A model generated the notes under the pieces. That model searched no databases. It was not told the DNA's origin and worked only from the letters and a program-made list of their open reading frames with translations. This document shows, piece after piece, positions 24,296-54,586 of a stretch of 64,000 nt of DNA (the stretch's first letter is position 1; each line of letters begins with the position of its first letter). The DNA comes from an endosymbiont of Galathealinum brachiosum. Its GTDB lineage: Bacteria; Pseudomonadota; Gammaproteobacteria; SZUA-229. The translations under genes and the position numbers were made by a program. The DNA is taken from contig QFXC01000007.1 of NCBI GenBank assembly GCA_003349885.1, positions 395,125 to 459,124 of the forward strand, given 5' to 3'.

Positions 24296-24510
24296 CAACC
24301 CCTTTGCATACCTTTACAGAAAAAACTCTAAGATTAATCTTCAAGACATAATCAGGGTCATATACTAATAGAGATTCAATTAGCCTGTTTTCTGATCAAT
24401 AACTATAAATATCCAGGCTGCATAAGTTGATCCTAATACATGACTACTATAGTATGGCATCCATAAAAACTAGATAGTCAATAATTTAAATTTTAATGGA
24501 TGAAACTCAA

Positions 24511-25341
24511 ATGAAAAACATCAGCAAATTACTGCTTTTATCGACCCTTTTAACTACCGCTACGGTTCAATCAGCAAGTATCGGCACATATGCAGCAGGT
24601 GGTCTTTTTGGCACTAGCGAAACGTCTGGTGGCATTGATCAAAGCACTGCTTCCGTTCAAGGTTCACGAAGCTTACAGGTAGTTCCAGGCTTTGGCACGT
24701 TAGGCGCATACTCATACAGAGCTGAAGCCGGCTTTGATACAAATGCCTTTGCTCCTGTGCTTAGAGCTGAAGCAATATATGATCGTCATACTGATGCATC
24801 AGATGACTGGTTTATCTCAGCAGAAGCATCTGCATTTCAGGTGTATCAAAACACCAGCAGCACATCTAATACTTACACCATCAGTCTCAATTTACATGGC
24901 ATTGTAGACAGCTCACCTTCCTCATTTATTGATGCCGACTTTTTTGTCTATTCAGGTGCCAATGTTTTTGCTGATAGCACATTATGTGGCAGCACTGCCA
25001 ATAGTTTAAATGATCTTGGTTACGCCTGCGGCTCTCAGATAGCATCTGAATTCGGTGGGTCGGGCTCTGAAATATCAGGTAATGGGGAAACGACTGTTCC
25101 TGGCATTGCCAGCTTTACAGTGGGTGCAGGCGAATTTTTCACTGTTTACGGAAGTCTTGAAGCGAGCACTTTTGGTGGCTCAGCAGATGCCTTCGGCACA
25201 TTCACTATGAAATTTGAGGATAACACCGACCTTCTCGCTGTAGGTCAGGTTTCAGCTGTTCCATTACCTGCTGCAGCCTGGTTGTTTATCTCTGGTCTTA
25301 TTGGCATAGCCACTTTTGCTAGAAGAAAAGCGACTGTATAA
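24511..25341 (+). CDS. VPLPA-CTERM exported protein
   Basis: A 276-residue exported protein with an N-terminal signal peptide (KNISKLLLLSTLLTTATVQSA) and a C-terminal sorting tail: VPLPAAAWLF, a hydrophobic segment and a final basic RRK. This is the VPLPA-type PEP-CTERM signal recognised by exosortase/archaeosortase systems. The body is a low-complexity, Ser/Gly/Ala-rich beta domain that I do not recognise. The start at 24511 gives the better signal peptide than the in-frame ATG at 24496. No exosortase is encoded here, so the sorting enzyme must lie elsewhere. Confidence 0.85.
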   Translation: MKNISKLLLLSTLLTTATVQSASIGTYAAGGLFGTSETSGGIDQSTASVQGSRSLQVVPGFGTLGAYSYRAEAGFDTNAFAPVLRAEAIYDRHTDASDDWFISAEASAFQVYQNTSSTSNTYTISLNLHGIVDSSPSSFIDADFFVYSGANVFADSTLCGSTANSLNDLGYACGSQIASEFGGSGSEISGNGETTVPGIASFTVGAGEFFTVYGSLEASTFGGSADAFGTFTMKFEDNTDLLAVGQVSAVPLPAAAWLFISGLIGIATFARRKATV

Positions 25342-28773: not shown

Positions 28774-28855
28774 ACACTACTATATCACTGTAGGACTTAG
28801 TCTCAGCTGACGACAAAATAGCAGATTTAACGTAAGTAAATTAATATATGAAATT

Positions 28856-28993
28856 ATTACAGCCTGATATCTATCAACAGCTACGATATTCATGCTTTAT
28901 AAAAATGAATTAAAACTACAGGACAGTAACTGTCCTTTGCTTAAGAAAAAGCTGTGAAAATGTCCAGACTATGACCGACAGTCTATTGCAGAC
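28856..28993 (+). other. Two-copy intergenic element, copy A (Fnr-box promoter)
   Basis: A ~138-bp stretch aligns almost without gaps to 36046-36183 (see copy B). It contains CTGAT-ATCT-ATCAA at 28864-28877, 9 of 10 half-site bases of the Fnr consensus TTGAT-N4-ATCAA, and a conserved TTATAAAAAT with the -10 hexamer TATAAA at 28898-28903. The box centre is 30 bp from the hexamer centre, the spacing of class II Fnr promoters. It reads toward the 3' end of the downstream Crp/Fnr gene. No open reading frame is shared between the two copies, so a small RNA is possible. A GGACAG-TAAC-TGTCC palindrome follows in this copy. Confidence 0.5.
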
Positions 28994-29046
28994 AATCATT
29001 CATATACAACCAGGCACTAAACTAGCGCTAACACCCTGAATACTAT

Positions 29047-29784
29047 TTAGTTATTTTTACCTGAATACCATTTAAGTCCTTCTGTAGATGCAAGATTAAT
29101 ACGTCCACGAGATAGTTTTACACAGTTTTCTTTTTCAAATTCTTTTAAGATTCGGCTTACTACTTCACGTGTTGTACCTAATTCGTGAGCTAGATCTTGA
29201 TGGGTTATTTTTAATGCGGCTCCCTTATTGCGTTCAAACAATCCACCCAGCATGCAAGCCAGACGCATATTTAAATGATTAAAAGCTGTATCTTGAACAA
29301 GGTACATCGTTTCACATAAGCGATCAGTTAAAGATGTGAGCACATAATTACGAAATTTTTCTATACCATTCATCGCACCATTAAAATCATCTGCGCTTAA
29401 CACTAAAGCCGTGACATCTGTTTCTGTTTTTGCAACCGCATTGTACGCATGTTTCTGTAACATGCTGTTCAAGCTTAAAACACACAAACCACCGGCTTCT
29501 ACCCTGTATAGGGTGATTTCGCGTCCATCATCTGCTATTTGATAAATCCTTATAGTGCCTTTTAGGATAAGCATGAATTTATTACAGGCAGATGAGCCAT
29601 GAAACATAGTGGTATGGGGTTTAACATTTAACTTTTTTGCATTATTAATTGTTTCAACCCATGCAGGGTCATTAACATCACCAAGAAATGGATAAGCCTG
29701 TTTAAGCTCATTTTGTCTATCATTATGAATCTCCAGAGATTGATTCATTACCGGTTCAATTCTGGCTACATTGGGACTATGCAT
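29047..29784 (-). CDS. Crp/Fnr family regulator (paralogue 1)
   Basis: A 245-residue transcription regulator with a cyclic-nucleotide-binding-like domain (about 40-165) and a C-terminal winged helix with TTREVVSRILKEFEKENCV as recognition helix. No Cys cluster typical of Fnr is present, so it is not a classical [4Fe-4S] Fnr. It shares long identical stretches with the gene at 53617-54336 (LKGTIRIYQ, ADDGREITLYRV, RLACMLGGLFER). Start ATG 29784 has GAGGTG upstream; the longer GTG start at 29799 is weaker. The ligand is unknown. Confidence 0.9.
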   Translation of the reverse strand: MHSPNVARIEPVMNQSLEIHNDRQNELKQAYPFLGDVNDPAWVETINNAKKLNVKPHTTMFHGSSACNKFMLILKGTIRIYQIADDGREITLYRVEAGGLCVLSLNSMLQKHAYNAVAKTETDVTALVLSADDFNGAMNGIEKFRNYVLTSLTDRLCETMYLVQDTAFNHLNMRLACMLGGLFERNKGAALKITHQDLAHELGTTREVVSRILKEFEKENCVKLSRGRINLASTEGLKWYSGKNN

Positions 29785-30383
29785 ACAAACACCTCGCACT
29801 TTCTACATCAATTAACTTAATCATGCAATAAACCTGTTCTTGAGTTAGCCGAATTGAAATTCATGAGCTGCAAGCCAGATACAGTAGTAATTTTTATTAC
29901 ATTTAAAAAAGAAAACTAATGAATAACCACACTAAATACCAGAATATTGTTCGTTCATTTTCGTACGAATATTGTGACGGTTTTTTTAATAATAAAAACA
30001 AAGCCTTACATAAATAATTTTAAGAAGAAAACCTGAGCAGTAACAACTGAGAATTATTTACATTTTTGAATGATTACTATCTATCATCGCCCCAATTTTA
30101 GTTTATGTAGTAATTAAAATTTCACACGGTTTATATGGTCGATTCAGATGATTAGTCGGTTGGTACTACTTGTAGCTAAACAGCGTTATCCATAAAAAGA
30201 TAGTCGAACTCTAATATCCTTTTATGATCATAAAATTTGTTGAATTATTCTTTATAGATAATGGCGTACATTCAATTAATTACCCTTCATTTTATTGTTT
30301 TTTAAGCCTGTACACCTGACATACAATATTAGTTCTAAATTAACACTTCAAAAACACTGATGCTAATGCATGGAGGTGATATT
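29785..30383. other. Intergenic, probable divergent promoter region
   Basis: About 600 bases of AT-rich sequence between the Crp/Fnr gene and the membrane-protein gene. It holds a repeated GAATATTGT motif (29942-29975) but no ORF and no convincing promoter or terminator. It presumably carries the divergent promoters. Confidence 0.4.
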
Positions 30384-30764
30384 ATGGAGTCTCAACATTA
30401 TGCCAATCGAGCTGGCTGGACGATTATCCTGTACGGGGTATGCCTGTCCTTTATTACCGCCTTTACCCCTTTCTTCGAAGCGGGTTATCTGTTTCAGGAC
30501 AATATTCTGCTGGCCGGTTTATTCCCTTATCTGATATATGCCATTGCCGTGCCACTACTGCCCGGAACAATTACCACCGTTGCCGGTATTGTACTGGCCG
30601 CAACACATACCGGACTGGTTATAGGCGTACGTTTTCTTAATTACAATGAAGGCCTGATGTATAGCATACCGGTTATTCTGGCGGTACTGCTGATACCACT
30701 GGTCATCTTTGCCCTGATCAAAACCGATGTACACAAACACGACTCGAAGATGATTGGACATTAG
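30384..30764 (+). CDS. Small four-helix membrane protein
   Basis: A 126-residue protein with four predicted membrane segments (about 11-28, 42-58, 62-82, 94-116) and a short His/Lys/Asp-rich C-terminus. I do not recognise the family. The start at 30384 is supported by a strong GGAGGTGAT Shine-Dalgarno 4-6 nt before ATG; the in-frame ATG at 30360 would lie inside it. Base composition is richer in G+C than its AT-rich surroundings. It is followed by a long perfect palindrome that could act as a terminator. Confidence 0.75.
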   Translation: MESQHYANRAGWTIILYGVCLSFITAFTPFFEAGYLFQDNILLAGLFPYLIYAIAVPLLPGTITTVAGIVLAATHTGLVIGVRFLNYNEGLMYSIPVILAVLLIPLVIFALIKTDVHKHDSKMIGH

Positions 30765-30769
30765 TAATA

Positions 30770-30820
30770 AAATAAAGGGGACGGAGGGATTAAGATTTAA
30801 TCCCTCCGTCCCCTTTATTT
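30770..30820. repeat. Perfect 24-bp REP-like palindrome
   Basis: Arms of 24 nt (AAATAAAGGGGACGG... and its exact complement ...CCGTCCCCTTTATTT) flank a 3-nt centre. The perfect arms and GGGGAC ends match REP-type elements mobilised by RAYT transposases. It sits 6 nt after the membrane-protein stop and could also terminate its transcript. Confidence 0.7.
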
Positions 30821-31111
30821 CCTTTAATTTCTTACTTCATTAACATTAATAACGACTTATATTAGGCCACACTAAAGATCAATAACTGAAATAGTTGTAT
30901 TGAATCAAAACGTCTACATTACGTAGTCAATTAAAAGTAAGTTTGATAAAACTGGTATAGTTTATGGTTATCATGCTTATCGAGCCCCCCATAGTGACAA
31001 AAGCCGAAAGTACAACCTGAATAAACAGGATCAATGATAAGTAGTGGAGTTAAACTGGAGCAACACAACTTATCAGTGTTACTATGCAGCAGACAATAAA
31101 TCAGGTAAATC
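30821..31111. other. Intergenic region upstream of DUF2956 gene
   Basis: Non-coding. TTGTA-TTGA-ATCAA at 30895-30908 resembles an Fnr box (9 of 10), but no good -10 sits at the expected place, so its function is uncertain. Confidence 0.3.
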
Positions 31112-31450
31112 ATGGCTAAACATTCTAAAAAGAATAAAATTTCAGAACAAACAAAAGAAGATGCCACAAAAATAGCATTGGGCACTCAAAGACCGGGGCA
31201 AACGAGAGAACAGACAAAGTTAATCACTCAGGGAATACAAAAAGGTATAGAACAATACAAAAAGAAACACAAAGAAAAGGCTCGAGAGTTAGACAAGAAA
31301 CTAAAAAAAGTATCAACGAGTAAACCGTTACCCGAACCTACTATTGAGAATACAGTTGGGCCCTCAACGGTTAAGCATAACAAACTACCATGGATTTTAT
31401 TGATCTTAAGCTGGATTGGCTTCTTCGTTTATTTTGTTACAGGAAAGTAA
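31112..31450 (+). CDS. DUF2956 family protein
   Basis: A 112-residue protein with the DUF2956 signature TQRPGQTREQTKLITQGIQ (about 25-43), a Lys-rich helical middle (KKKHKEKARELDKKLKK) and a C-terminal membrane anchor (PWILLILSWIGFFVYFV). The family is widespread in gammaproteobacteria and has no known function. Confidence 0.85.
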   Translation: MAKHSKKNKISEQTKEDATKIALGTQRPGQTREQTKLITQGIQKGIEQYKKKHKEKARELDKKLKKVSTSKPLPEPTIENTVGPSTVKHNKLPWILLILSWIGFFVYFVTGK

Positions 31451-31565
31451 CTTGAAACGAATAAATTCCCATCGAGGCAACTCTGGTAACAAAGACCCTA
31501 AACACAACCTGAAGCTTTGTTTATATAGATTTTTTATGATGAGCACCCGATTAAACACTTAACTT

Positions 31566-32225
31566 TCACTTACCAAACAAACATTCTTCATGGTTATCTA
31601 ACCATAACGGGTATTTGAACATCGCTTTTGAAAACAACCGGCTTTGCAGATGTTGGTTTAACCAGCGCTGTAAATGCGTGTACGGGCCCTGTAAATACAG
31701 TTGTCGGTTTACCCGGGAAAACTGTCGAACAAAAGGCAATAAGGCATAATCGAGTAAGCTGGGTGTAGAGCCCATTAAGAATTCATGTTGTGTCAGGCGA
31801 ATTTCCAGACTTTGAATAAAAGGTTCACACAGTAGGCGACACTGCTCTTCATCATCACCGTGAAAACGTTTGGCACGTTTGTATTGTTCTAACTTCGGCT
31901 TAAAATTTTCATCATTATCTTTAATTATTTTAAGCATTTCCACGAGTGCATCTGTATCCTGCGAATAGAGTAAATTTCCAGGATCATTAAGCTTAAGCGC
32001 CCACAACATAATATCTAAACTTTCATCGATGACGGTTTTATTGCTCTTAGCTTCTAACACTAAAACAGGTACTGTACCTTTAGGGGATAGCGCTAACATT
32101 TCAGGTGGTTTATCTTGCATAACAATTGCACGCAACCTGACAGTTTGTTGAGCTAATAATATGCCGAGTCTTGCACGCATCGCGTATGGGCAGTTTTGCA
32201 GAGAATAGAGTATTGGCAATGTCAT
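31566..32225 (-). CDS. Glutathione S-transferase family protein
   Basis: A 219-residue protein with a thioredoxin-fold N-terminal domain starting LYSLQNCPYAMRARLGI (Cys near residue 13) and an all-helical C-terminal domain. The CPYAMRAR motif is typical of the glutaredoxin-2-like/GST branch. Cytoplasmic; substrate not predictable. It stands alone between the DUF2956 and U32 genes. Confidence 0.88.
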   Translation of the reverse strand: MTLPILYSLQNCPYAMRARLGILLAQQTVRLRAIVMQDKPPEMLALSPKGTVPVLVLEAKSNKTVIDESLDIMLWALKLNDPGNLLYSQDTDALVEMLKIIKDNDENFKPKLEQYKRAKRFHGDDEEQCRLLCEPFIQSLEIRLTQHEFLMGSTPSLLDYALLPFVRQFSRVNRQLYLQGPYTHLQRWLNQHLQSRLFSKAMFKYPLWLDNHEECLFGK

Positions 32226-32261
32226 AAGCTTATGATTTTAATCCGAACTCCAGTTTTCGAT

Positions 32262-32300
32262 TTCTCGTCCCCACGCTCCCCGTGGGAATACTGAGCGATG
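32262..32300. repeat. Short dispersed repeat (CCCACGCTCCCCGTGGG)
   Basis: CCCCACGCTCCCCGTGGGAATAC is a short palindrome of the CCCACGCT...CGTGGGAA type common in gammaproteobacterial intergenic DNA. It lies between the GST gene and the U32 gene. Confidence 0.5.
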
Positions 32301-32371
32301 CATTAATAAAACGGGACTGCCCCCTTTTATCCACGATAACGTTATTCAGAGATGGCAAGCCAACCATCATT

Positions 32372-34621
32372 TCACAAACCCTGACGATATTGTGCGTTAG
32401 TCGAAATGCTAACCATATTACTTAATTTCTGTGGTGCCTGATCATCACCGCTTAACAGGTTTTCAAAATATTTAACCAGTTGCGCTTTGTCTAACTCCGC
32501 TTTAGAGCCAGCGCCAATATTAGTTAAATCAATAAAAAATTCATCAAATAAATCGGCAAGGTCACTGACGATGTCCAGGTTTAAAAACTGTTCATGATTA
32601 TAAATACTGGGGTAGCCACCTTTTTGTTTATCGACGGCAAAAGAAACACCCTTTACATTCGTTATCGTCGTGGCTTTTGTACACTTCAGCATACAACCGT
32701 CTTCAATGGTTGGCTTTTTACAGCCTACGGTTTGCTGAAAGAAACACTGGCGACTGGTCATCATTAAAATCGGATGATAAATACTGTACAGCAGTTTGAA
32801 ATTATCCGGTCTTGCAATATTTTTTATTTGCATGCGATTAATTTCGTTTGAAATAAAAGCCCCGGCACAATTTAATTCTTCTTTCAACGTTAACAATGCA
32901 TAAGAGTTGGTGGTATTTAAAAATGGTCCCGCAATCCAATCAATGTCCATTTCAAATGCTTTATAAGCAATGCCGGTATTATTACTAACAATACGTTCAG
33001 GGCGAACTTGTTCAAGTAACCGCACAGATTCATCATAATCTTTACCAATTAATACCGCCGGAAACCAGGGTATCAGGCGAGGATTGCGCAAAAAAATATC
33101 GATGTGTTTATTGCAGCCTTTTTTAAGACTTTCTGGCAACTTGAAATACACATCAGCATCAGTTAGATCACACAGATGCATATCTTTTTCGTCGGCAATT
33201 AATATCGACAAAGCAGGTTTATCTGCCAATTTTTTATGTTTCTCTAACGGTGCTATGTCAACATTGGGAATAATGTCGACTGAATTATTTAATAATGAAG
33301 CCGCCTGATTTTTCAAAGCTGTCAGTTCTTTAAACGCAATAGTTAAACCATCATCCAGAGCGTTACATTCAAACCCGTCAATACGATAATCATTACTTGC
33401 AAAGTTTTTAAATCGTTTTTCCAGTGTTGTCTGATCGATGGCAGATTGACTTGCAGATATGAGCGGCGATTGTGTTTTCACGTGGTGAACTTTGTCACTA
33501 TCACCTATCGTCATCGTTAAACATAAAGGCGCATTTAACTGTCCTGAAAAAGTTAGTACTAACGGTTGTTTTGCAATACTCAAATATTTTATTTTTTCTG
33601 CAAGCTCGTCCCCGAGTTCATTTTTCTTTGTGAACAGTACCTGCTTCACATGCAGAACATCCTCCACCAACACAGCATTATTTTCTTTAATGGCATGGTT
33701 AACACTGTGATCACGAGGGTTATCAATAAACATATCTTTACTGAGATTGCCCTGTAAAAAAGAATTCGTAAAATCACGGTTAAATACGCGGTGCAAGTTA
33801 GAGTCGTCGGCCAACAGCTTTCCGGTTTCAACAAACTCGTCAACCTGCTTTCTCCAGGTATCGACTACGGTATAAACATAGTGTGCATTTTTAATACGAC
33901 CTTCAATTTTCAATGAGTCAACTTCAGCATCGACTAATGCCGGCAAATCAAAATAAGCAGAATTGTCTTTCAGGTTGAGTGGAAAACGATTGCCCGCCGC
34001 AGTCACTTCATATTCATCACGACATGCCTGACTACAACTTCCACGGTTACCTGAGTTACCCACGCTAACCGAGCTGGAATAACACTGGCCAGAAAATGCA
34101 ATACACAGAGCGCCATGCACAAAAACTTCGGTGAGCACATCGTGCCTGTGGGCGAGTGCCGTTAATGATTTTATTTCGTCAATATTTAATTCACGTGACA
34201 GATTAACCCGTGATGCGCCGATTTTTGCCAGAAATAATATCTGACCTTCATTAAGCGTCGTTAACTGAGTTGAAGCGTGAATACTCAGCGATGGAAAGTA
34301 TTTCTTTACCAGATTAAAAACACCCAGATCCTGTACGATGATGCCATCGATACCGGTGTTAACCAGCTTGTTCAGCAGTTTGATTAAGCTGCGTAACTCC
34401 TGCTCCAGAATGACGACATTTAAGGTCAAAAACACTTCGCAATCGTATTTGTGCGCTAAACGTAAGATGCCGGATAAGTCGTCAAAGGTAAGGTTAGAGG
34501 CACGGTTCCGCGCATTAAAATTATCCAGCCCACAATAAACCGCATTAGCACCGGCAATAACAGCTGCTTTAATGGCTTCAACATCGCCACCGGGCGCTAA
34601 TAGTTCAATATTTCTAGTCAT
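32372..34621 (-). CDS. U32 family protein (RlhA-like)
   Basis: A 749-residue protein of the U32 'peptidase' family, whose studied members are mostly RNA or cofactor hydroxylases (for example RlhA/YdcP for 23S rRNA C2501). The N-terminal TIM-like domain begins IELLAPGGDVEAIKAAVIAG and includes VHGALCIAFSGQCYSSS and GNRGSCSQACRDEYE, the Cys cluster likely to hold an iron-sulfur centre. Start ATG 34621 gives the family N-terminus; an upstream in-frame ATG (34693) adds 24 unrelated residues. The exact substrate cannot be assigned; it is longer than E. coli RlhA. Confidence 0.85.
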   Translation of the reverse strand: MTRNIELLAPGGDVEAIKAAVIAGANAVYCGLDNFNARNRASNLTFDDLSGILRLAHKYDCEVFLTLNVVILEQELRSLIKLLNKLVNTGIDGIIVQDLGVFNLVKKYFPSLSIHASTQLTTLNEGQILFLAKIGASRVNLSRELNIDEIKSLTALAHRHDVLTEVFVHGALCIAFSGQCYSSSVSVGNSGNRGSCSQACRDEYEVTAAGNRFPLNLKDNSAYFDLPALVDAEVDSLKIEGRIKNAHYVYTVVDTWRKQVDEFVETGKLLADDSNLHRVFNRDFTNSFLQGNLSKDMFIDNPRDHSVNHAIKENNAVLVEDVLHVKQVLFTKKNELGDELAEKIKYLSIAKQPLVLTFSGQLNAPLCLTMTIGDSDKVHHVKTQSPLISASQSAIDQTTLEKRFKNFASNDYRIDGFECNALDDGLTIAFKELTALKNQAASLLNNSVDIIPNVDIAPLEKHKKLADKPALSILIADEKDMHLCDLTDADVYFKLPESLKKGCNKHIDIFLRNPRLIPWFPAVLIGKDYDESVRLLEQVRPERIVSNNTGIAYKAFEMDIDWIAGPFLNTTNSYALLTLKEELNCAGAFISNEINRMQIKNIARPDNFKLLYSIYHPILMMTSRQCFFQQTVGCKKPTIEDGCMLKCTKATTITNVKGVSFAVDKQKGGYPSIYNHEQFLNLDIVSDLADLFDEFFIDLTNIGAGSKAELDKAQLVKYFENLLSGDDQAPQKLSNMVSISTNAQYRQGL

Positions 34622-35053
34622 GTGCGAATCACTTAATTCCGGGTAATGGCCTGCTGATCTTTTGTAATAGCTGAATATAACCTGCCTTCCCAATGTGGCT
34701 CTTATAGGCTGGCTTCTAACATATTCCCTCTTAACATATACCTAATGGGCATATCCTGAAGGGTAACGGGGGAACATTTTACCTGCTGAATTTTCGATGT
34801 ATAGTCATCCTATCGTTCAATATCACATAATTGAACGATAGTGAGCTATAACGAGCCATGATGGACCTGAGAGCATTGTCATGGAGCACTGCCATCGATT
34901 ATTGCAAAGGTGGGTTTAATATTGCTGAATTTGTAATGAGATAATACCAGATAGACTTCCCGGAATTAAACTCCGGAATTGGTTTCAATCACAGGTTCGA
35001 ATGTTTCAATGCAAAGCATAGAAGGTTGAGTCTTTTTAGTAAGCGTTAATCAG
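34622..35053. other. Intergenic region upstream of U32 gene
   Basis: About 430 non-coding bases. Besides the palindrome at 34810-34841 it holds a weaker hairpin near 34955-34978 (TTCCCGGA with TCCGGAA). No promoter could be assigned. Confidence 0.4.
34810..34841. repeat. Perfect 12-bp-arm palindrome upstream of U32 gene
   Basis: CTATCGTTCAAT and its exact complement ATTGAACGATAG flank ATCACATA. It lies about 190 bp upstream of the U32 start. It has no U-tract; a regulator-binding site or a small dispersed repeat are both possible. Confidence 0.5.
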
Positions 35054-35197
35054 CTAACGTTTTTCCAGGATGATTTTTGACGGAACAGGCTCTGGCTCAG
35101 GCTGGCTACAGCAAACAGGTATTGTACAACCGGAAATACTGATTAAAAATCCAAGGAGCAAGGTTATTGTCAAAAAACGTTGTTTTGTGCGTAACAT
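35054..35197 (-). CDS. 47-residue lipoprotein
   Basis: A 47-residue ORF coding for a basic start (MLRTKQR), a hydrophobic helix (TITLLLGFLISI) and the lipobox SGC, with lipidated Cys at about residue 24. The mature peptide is short and Pro/Glu-rich (PEPEPVPS) with two further Cys (CC). This is a typical small lipoprotein layout. No homologue is known to me. It follows the damaged DsrE-like gene on the same strand. Confidence 0.6.
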   Translation of the reverse strand: MLRTKQRFLTITLLLGFLISISGCTIPVCCSQPEPEPVPSKIILEKR

Positions 35198-35294
35198 AAA
35201 TGTATTCCAGCTTAATTTTCAGTGTATAAAAGAGCATAAAGAATAGTGAGAGTAACATAGTCTATCAATCACATTCGTATATACAGGATAAACC

Positions 35295-35326
35295 AAAAAA
35301 AAACGGCCGCCATAAAAACTGCCGTT
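35295..35326 (-). terminator. Terminator after DsrE-like pseudogene
   Basis: On the minus strand AACGGC pairs with GCCGTT around a loop and is followed by a run of eight T. It lies 25 nt past the end of the DsrE-like gene. Confidence 0.75.
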
Positions 35327-35350
35327 ATCTTTTCACTTCTTTAATATTAA

Positions 35351-35849
35351 TTAAAAAGTCATTACCTTGTCTGCACTGAGGAATAAATTATGAATAATCA
35401 CTGGATTAGCAAATATTCCATTAGTAAGCTGTGTAATTCCACGACTCATTGTGCATAACGTACAAATCACAACTTTTCCGCACATGCTCTCAAAGCCATT
35501 TAACAGGCCTTGAAGTGAAGCAGTTTTAACGCCATTAGGAGTGGCACAAGCAGGCTTTGGATTCGCTCTTGTATGAATATTATTATCAGGATTAATTAAT
35601 TCTACACCACTCGTTTGAACGCAAAGAGTGACATCATCAGCAGGTGCAGCGCCACCAGGGCTCATTAATAGATACATCCCAATTTGAAGTGCGATACAGG
35701 CTGGTTCCGGATCTTTTGTCGGATCTGTTATGAGTGCAACCATCTCCACTGGCAATATCTGCAGCTTAAACGGCACTACTTGTAAAACCGACAATGGTTA
35801 ATGATACAAGCACAGCAGCGCGTTTTAATTTACTTATTGTATTGAACAT
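35351..35849 (-). pseudogene. Exported DsrE-like gene, frameshifted
   Basis: ATG 35849 opens a signal peptide (FNTISKLKRAAVLVSLTIVG, then FTSSAV) but reads a TAA at 35768-35766 and then AADIASG. The mature part lies in the next frame: VALITDPTKDPEPACIALQIG, CVQTSGVELI, and the C-terminal FESMCGKVVICTLCTMS with a final LFLSADKVMTF, the ending typical of DsrE-like proteins with two Cys near CTLC. So a nonsense change and a frameshift separate signal and mature domains. An intact version would be an exported DsrE-like protein. A sequencing error near 35740-35768 is the alternative. Confidence 0.6.
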
Positions 35850-36269
35850 TTATATTTCACTTTATTTAATATTTACTCGTCATAGCAACTTTAATTAGTC
35901 TGCATCGAAAGACCGTCATACAAAAAGTAATATTATTTGTGAGTTAGAGCACACATAAGACTCTATTTTCAACATCACTAATGCCAGATACATAAGAAGC
36001 AGATTTATAAAAAATAAATTATAAACAAAATTAAAAAACAAAATCATTACAACCTGATAACTATAAAAATCTACGATATTTATTCTTTATAAAAATGAAT
36101 CATATCTATAGGACAGAAACCGTCATTAACTTTAAAAACATTGTAAAAACATCCGATCTACGACCGTCAATCTACTTATGACTTTATTTCTATCATCATG
36201 CACAACTTAAACCTTGCAGAAAAAATGTAGGCGTTAGCCATATCTGAAATTTGGACTGACGATGTTAAC
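35850..36269. other. Intergenic region carrying copy B element
   Basis: AT-rich non-coding stretch between nrtD and the DsrE-like pseudogene. It contains the repeated element at 36046-36183 and nothing else assignable. Confidence 0.45.
36046..36183 (+). other. Two-copy intergenic element, copy B
   Basis: Aligns with 28856-28993 almost without gaps for about 100 nt. Blocks CTACGATATT, CTTTATAAAAATGAAT and GGACAG-AAC-GTC are shared. The Fnr-like box is degenerate here (CTGAT-AACT-ATAAA at 36054-36067) but the -10 hexamer is kept. It reads toward the 3' end of nrtD. Confidence 0.45.
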
Positions 36270-39812: not shown

Positions 39813-39863
39813 TTAGCAATCCCTTATAAAAAGGGTGTTTTAGGCCTTTATAAGCTTCATACA

Positions 39864-53616: not shown

Positions 53617-54336
53617 TTAGTTAGAATTTGCAATCCATTCAAGTGCTTCTGCTGAAACAAGTTCAATCGAACCTCTTGATAGTTTTATGCAGTTTTGTTT
53701 TTCAAAATCTTTTAGAATACGGCTAACCACTTCTCTGGTGGTACCAATTTCAAATGCAAGTTTTTGATGGGTTATTTTTAATACTGAGTCATTAGCTCTT
53801 TCAAAAAGAATGCCCAACATACATGCAAGTCGCAGATCCAGGTTATTAAAAACCGTATCCTGTATCATGCAGGTCGTTTTATACAAACGCTCTATTAAGC
53901 AGGAAATAATATATTCACGAAATGGTTTAATTGTGTCCATTAGAAATCTGAATGATTGCGGACTAATAGCCAATGTCTCTACATGTGATTCTGTTGTGGC
54001 CACAGCATTGAAGGTTTTATTTTCTAATAACAGATTAAGATTAAGCAAACAAACTTCGCCCGCCTGCACACGATAAAGAGTTATCTCTCTACCATCATCG
54101 GCGGTTTGGTAAATTCTAATTGTTCCCTCAAGAATTAACATGAAATTATTAAAGGATGAATCATCACCAGAAAAGGTCACTTTAGGATCTGTCTCTATTA
54201 AACGTGAATCCCCAATGATTTCAATCCATTTCTTATCTTTTATTTCTGAAAGCTGAGGATAAACTGATTCTATTTTTTGAAAACGACATGATTTTGAAAT
54301 CACATTTTGTGATTTACAATTATTTAACGAACACAT
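53617..54336 (-). CDS. Crp/Fnr family regulator (paralogue 2)
   Basis: A 239-residue regulator closely similar to the gene at 29047-29784 (LEGTIRIYQ, ADDGREITLYRV, RLACMLGILFER), with the C-terminal helix TTREVVSRILKDFEKQNCI. The N-terminus has several Cys (MCSLNNCKSQ, SKSCRF), unlike the paralogue. Start ATG 54336 is chosen over the TTG frame at 54348. It converges with the TonB receptor gene. Effector unknown. Confidence 0.9.
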   Translation of the reverse strand: MCSLNNCKSQNVISKSCRFQKIESVYPQLSEIKDKKWIEIIGDSRLIETDPKVTFSGDDSSFNNFMLILEGTIRIYQTADDGREITLYRVQAGEVCLLNLNLLLENKTFNAVATTESHVETLAISPQSFRFLMDTIKPFREYIISCLIERLYKTTCMIQDTVFNNLDLRLACMLGILFERANDSVLKITHQKLAFEIGTTREVVSRILKDFEKQNCIKLSRGSIELVSAEALEWIANSN

Positions 54337-54586
54337 ACAACCACCCAAAAATATTAAAATTTATTTTTTTATTATTATGCTTTTATAATTTTATTATTTT
54401 TTATCAGGCAATTACTGCTAACGCCTTTATTACATACCTATATAAAACAGAGTACGTATTATGATTTTATGATATTAGCTGGGTTCATTATAAGCAATAA
54501 AACACAAATGTAATCACTCGTTCGAATTAACTACTGAATATAAGAAAAAGATTAACTACCCCCCTTAATTCAATTCATTTTTTATT

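Follow-up and report, generated by a model that had tools for sequence, protein, structure and literature searches.

Two intergenic stretches, about 7 kb apart in a 64,000-nt piece of an endosymbiont genome (the window), resemble each other closely, which raises the question of what they are and what, if anything, they control. A sequence-only reading had proposed a pair of Fnr/Crp-regulated small RNAs or promoter relics. We consider it highly probable that the two, here called A and B, both represent, in diverged form, the non-coding control region found ahead of some PEP-CTERM genes, and that they are now relics. The repeat is real, and our best reading of it is largely ordinary: decayed upstream regions of the PEP-CTERM regulon.

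The repeat and its further copies

Copies A and B are 76% identical over a 148-nt alignment, and the repeat is far above chance: in BLAST searches of their own 3.77-Mb genome the core (77% identity over 130 nt) gave E = 3.5e-21 and the extended 148-nt match E = 1.1e-23. The sequence-only reading had matched these intergenic stretches rightly, with correct coordinates for both, and inspection of the open reading frames (ORFs) bears out its statement that the copies have none in common. The 3′ end of rsgA lies 65 nt from copy A, with no gene between A and the rsgA stop. The features referred to below are as follows.

28838–28985, minus strand: copy A, probably a decayed PEP-CTERM-type upstream control region, leftward-reading, with the downstream gene gone; 148-nt alignment to B
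36028–36174, minus strand: copy B, probably a control region as in A, upstream of a frameshifted secreted ORF
28946–28991, minus strand: upstream module (TGTC..CATGGTC..GGACATTTTTACA), common to regions 330–380 nt upstream of PEP-CTERM genes
28872–28888, minus strand: decayed motif 1-like 17-mer TATCGTAGCTGTTGATA in A, a predicted PrsR enhancer; the homologous block is at −151 of PEP-CTERM ATGs
36062–36078, minus strand: motif 1-like 17-mer TATCGTAGATTTTTATA in B, ranked 10 of 127,968 positions by position weight matrix (PWM)
35971–35986, minus strand: sigma-54-like site TGGCATTAGTGATGTT in B, −24 (GG) intact, −12 GC changed to GT
35351–35849, minus strand: frameshifted ORF after B, with signal peptide MFNTISKLKRAAVLVSLTIVGFTSSAV and then an out-of-frame body with weak DsrE similarity

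The element is not confined to A and B: a genome-wide search found further partial copies, mostly linked to PEP-CTERM genes (counts beyond the retrieved stretches of this genome come from database genome searches). The 3′ half of A (28946–28991) also matches C7:110211 (E = 1.7e-9), C7:211295 (E = 2.0e-8) and C8:462052 (E = 3.8e-8) in BLAST of its own genome, and a longer version of these 3′-half copies matches one more place, C8:453635. The 5′ block, TGATAACTRTAAANNNCTACGAYATT, searched genome-wide with up to three mismatches, occurs at five places only: A, B and the PEP-CTERM upstream regions at C7:110002, C8:448144 and C11:54160. The reversed control gave 0 matches. All copies outside the window except C8:462052 lie upstream of genes that end in sequence like VPVPAAVWLFGSGLIGLVGFARRKKA, which is the PEP-CTERM (VPLPA-CTERM) sorting signal; the C8:462052 copy of the 3′ module has no PEP-CTERM gene nearby. 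Separately, phrases such as CGACCCAAAGCGGACG and GGAACTAGCCATAAGCGG recur in intergenic L003, L005, L033 and L034, mostly beside PEP-CTERM genes. They may belong to a dispersed repeat, whose ends are near-inverted at C8:461931–462231.

Searches of other genomes returned little. Copy A had no BLAST match in four congeners, nothing like A was found at the congener rsgA loci, and a longer related element was absent from 95 relatives, those four included. Plasmid and phage collections gave no match or a chance AT-rich one. For the upstream core, a degenerate 32-nt pattern run against 84,980 genomes and IMG/VR retrieved one Synergistales match with dissimilar flanks, which we rejected as chance.

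Homology to PEP-CTERM control regions

The conserved 43-nt block of A and B, read in the opposite orientation, matches a segment exactly 151 nt upstream of PEP-CTERM (VPLPA-CTERM) ATGs. For 23 PEP-CTERM genes, the upstream 400 nt were scanned with the 34 positions of the block at which A and B agree (21 VPLPA-CTERM genes in the genome score above cut-off). L112 scored 26 of 34, L100 24 and L101 23, all exactly at −151, and a fourth gene, L106, scored 19, likewise at −151; the same scan of both strands of the window (128,000 positions) reached a maximum of 22 apart from A and B. On the minus strand the block reads TGTCGTAGTCCTTTACA in the PEP-CTERM genes, 17 nt ending in TTTACA, and in six genes a sigma-54 site such as TGGCTTAAATATTGCA follows 62–66 nt after it, usually ~53 nt before the ATG. 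These pairs come from a structured search, which was used because de novo motif expectation maximization settled on no single motif for the 23 upstream regions.

According to Haft et al. 2006 (PMC1569441), a 17-nt motif 1 ending in TTTACA stands upstream of proteobacterial PEP-CTERM genes, separated from a sigma-54 motif 2 by 62.8 ± 10.6 nt (range 32–92); the response regulator PrsR is proposed as the activator, and some sites precede genes other than PEP-CTERM genes. By its length, ending, spacing and context, the arrangement in this genome appears to match that pair: the 43-nt block spans the 17-nt motif 1, which is predicted to be a PrsR enhancer and stands before a sigma-54 promoter. RpoN dependence has been demonstrated experimentally for one PEP-CTERM gene (PMC9850573). 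PrsR itself (TIGR02915) is encoded at C13:16069–17400, with 695 bits against a cut-off of 502.6, and would be the protein that binds the block. A VPLPA-CTERM gene also lies inside the window (24496–25341), with no convincing motif 1/sigma-54 pair upstream.

An intact region runs, on the minus strand, from the upstream module through ~125 nt to motif 1, a 62–66-nt spacer, the sigma-54 −24/−12 elements and, usually ~53 nt further on, the ATG. The 3′-half module of A aligns with the PEP-CTERM upstream module, and its order and orientation are those seen there; together with the block match, this marks A and B as shortened homologues of PEP-CTERM upstream regions. Because their similarity extends beyond motif 1 into the spacer, it argues for common descent over convergent evolution of the site. 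Both copies lack ~125 nt of the middle found in PEP-CTERM upstream regions, and since they share this shortening, they would stem from one common shortened ancestor rather than separately and directly from PEP-CTERM genes.

State of the copies and competing explanations

The position homologous to motif 1 is present in both copies; its last six letters are TTTATA in B, TTGATA in A and TTTACA in the PEP-CTERM genes. Scored with a motif 1 PWM built from six PEP-CTERM genes, A and B excluded, the site in A ranks 74 of 127,968 and is weak on its own. In nhmmer, a profile of four PEP-CTERM regions matched A at E = 0.055 and B at E = 2.6, which were still the top two matches in the window. The strongest motif 1-like PWM score in the window, at 39836 (+), was rejected as a control region, having no convincing gene downstream. 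In B, 75 nt separate motif 1 from the sigma-54-like site, which lies ~120 nt from the ATG at 35849; the ORF loses its frame after the signal peptide, near 35770–35795, and has no PEP-CTERM tail. Copy A has no sigma-54 site (GG-N10-GC, 32–92 nt after motif 1) and no PEP-CTERM gene downstream. Several points weigh against our preferred reading: the weak motif 1 in A, the nhmmer values, the missing tail of the ORF after B, the C8:462052 module with no PEP-CTERM gene and the shortened middle common to A and B. With the −12 element broken in B and no sigma-54 site in A, we file both as relics and not as working members.

An alternative we regard as rather unlikely is that PrsR/sigma-54 control is still live at B, and perhaps at A, with B driving the minus-strand secreted DsrE-like ORF and the frameshift being an assembly error or tolerated. 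The tenth-ranked motif 1-like site, a spacer inside the published 32–92 range, a perfect −24 element and the published sites that precede non-PEP-CTERM genes (PMC1569441) all suit this view of B, whereas the −12 GC reading GT and the ORF out of frame past its signal peptide speak against it; for A, neither a sigma-54 site nor a gene is present. If B is a relic, as we prefer, weak residual PrsR/sigma-54 activity could persist there.

The upstream module raises a related possibility. Retained in A and B as well as in the PEP-CTERM copies, it contains an imperfect dyad, TGTC-N12-GACA, with a T run and ACA after it, and lies 330–380 nt upstream of the ATG. It falls outside the published motif pair and is the one loose end of some interest; that it serves a PEP-CTERM sub-regulon as a further enhancer or regulator site, so far undescribed, with B adding a secreted DsrE-like protein to that sub-regulon, we think unlikely.

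Insertion of a non-autonomous mobile element, MITE-like or REP-like, at both places is to our mind about as doubtful. The copies are dispersed, and the one at C8:462052 has near-inverted ends (GCTTATGGCTAATTCC / GGAACTAGCCATAAGC), but A and B do not have ends of that type, and the alignments revealed no terminal inverted repeats or target-site duplication at either. The motif 1 block keeps a fixed distance from PEP-CTERM start codons, copy number is low, and none was found in the relatives searched.

Very improbable is the pair of Fnr/Crp-regulated small RNAs transcribed rightward, for which A offers a one-mismatch Fnr box and a TATAAA that B retains. The window holds 5 instances of TTGATN4ATCAA at up to one mismatch, where 5.5 are expected, and the box is absent from B and all homologues. 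In A it lies at 28864–28877, where the motif 1-like site overlaps it, and its ATCAA half-site is private to that copy; the others have GTAAA or ATAAA, the complement of the motif 1 end TTTACA. TATAAA is indeed identical in A and B, as had been noted, but alignment shows that the homologous PEP-CTERM-linked copies do not retain it. Fold z-scores (−1.3 and −0.2) are within chance, neither a terminator nor a sigma-70 promoter was found on the plus strand, and Rfam gave nothing at A or B at gathering or relaxed thresholds. Given a chance-level box and no sign of a small RNA, the neighbouring Crp/Fnr gene, which had been said to make direct control testable, is not evidence of control by its protein. 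The other proposal, promoter relics, was essentially right about relics and wrong about promoter type and strand: judged by motif and spacing, the control site is of the predicted PrsR/sigma-54 PEP-CTERM type, leftward on the minus strand, and not a rightward Fnr class II promoter.

Two other features of the window were seen in passing. A second Crp/Fnr paralogue at 53620–54345 (C7:448744–449469) is 51% identical to the one at 29047–29799. An inverted repeat, AAAGGGGACGGAGGGATTAA ... TTAATCCCTCCGTCCCCTTT (30775–30820, ~20-bp stem), lies just past the plus-strand ORF 30360–30764 and draws spurious weak miRNA matches in Rfam.

Origin and comparison with known systems

In the most likely history of the relics, a gene was duplicated together with its upstream region, or that region was copied on its own, and gene loss came later. 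A would have lost both its gene and its sigma-54 site; B retains, in front of the frameshifted secreted ORF, a site resembling motif 1 and a sigma-54 site that is damaged. The place where A sits here is taken, in two congeners (L125, L126), by a secreted DsrE-family gene that is intact (Pfam E = 3.2e-8) and convergent to rsgA, and the B-facing ORF is distantly similar to the congener gene (E = 0.002 in a two-sequence comparison). A and B could thus come from two DsrE-like paralogues, A's gene lost since; as the upstream regions of the congener DsrE-family genes hold no A/B block, this stays a suggestion. Remnant PEP-CTERM tails of 35–38 aa lie beside intact PEP-CTERM genes at L123 (C8:448416–448490, minus strand) and L122 (C11:207828–207878, minus strand), which points to birth and loss of genes within the family.

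The analysis removes a tempting, unsupported Fnr/small-RNA claim and indicates that 'repeats' between genes, with boxes that mimic regulatory sites, can be what remains when members of a multi-copy secreted-protein family are born and die out. The PEP-CTERM copies also form a small set of natural variants for the predicted PrsR enhancer.

Among known systems, an Fnr class II promoter shares with A a fortuitous CTGAT-N4-ATCAA and differs in that the box, at chance frequency, recurs in no homologue. Set against the PEP-CTERM cis-regulatory region of the PrsK/PrsR regulon (PMC1569441), the A/B block shares homology with the region around motif 1 in the PEP-CTERM genes of this genome, and B likewise has a motif 1-like site, an in-range spacer and a recognisable sigma-54 −24 element. 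The differences are that A lacks motif 2 and a gene, and that in B the −12 element is broken and the ORF it faces is frameshifted and has no PEP-CTERM tail. The RpoN-dependent pepA promoter of Aquincola tertiaricarbonis (PMC9850573) is alike in layout, with the experimentally mapped −24/−12 of a PEP-CTERM gene and a predicted enhancer upstream; unlike A and B, it is functional and stands before an intact gene.
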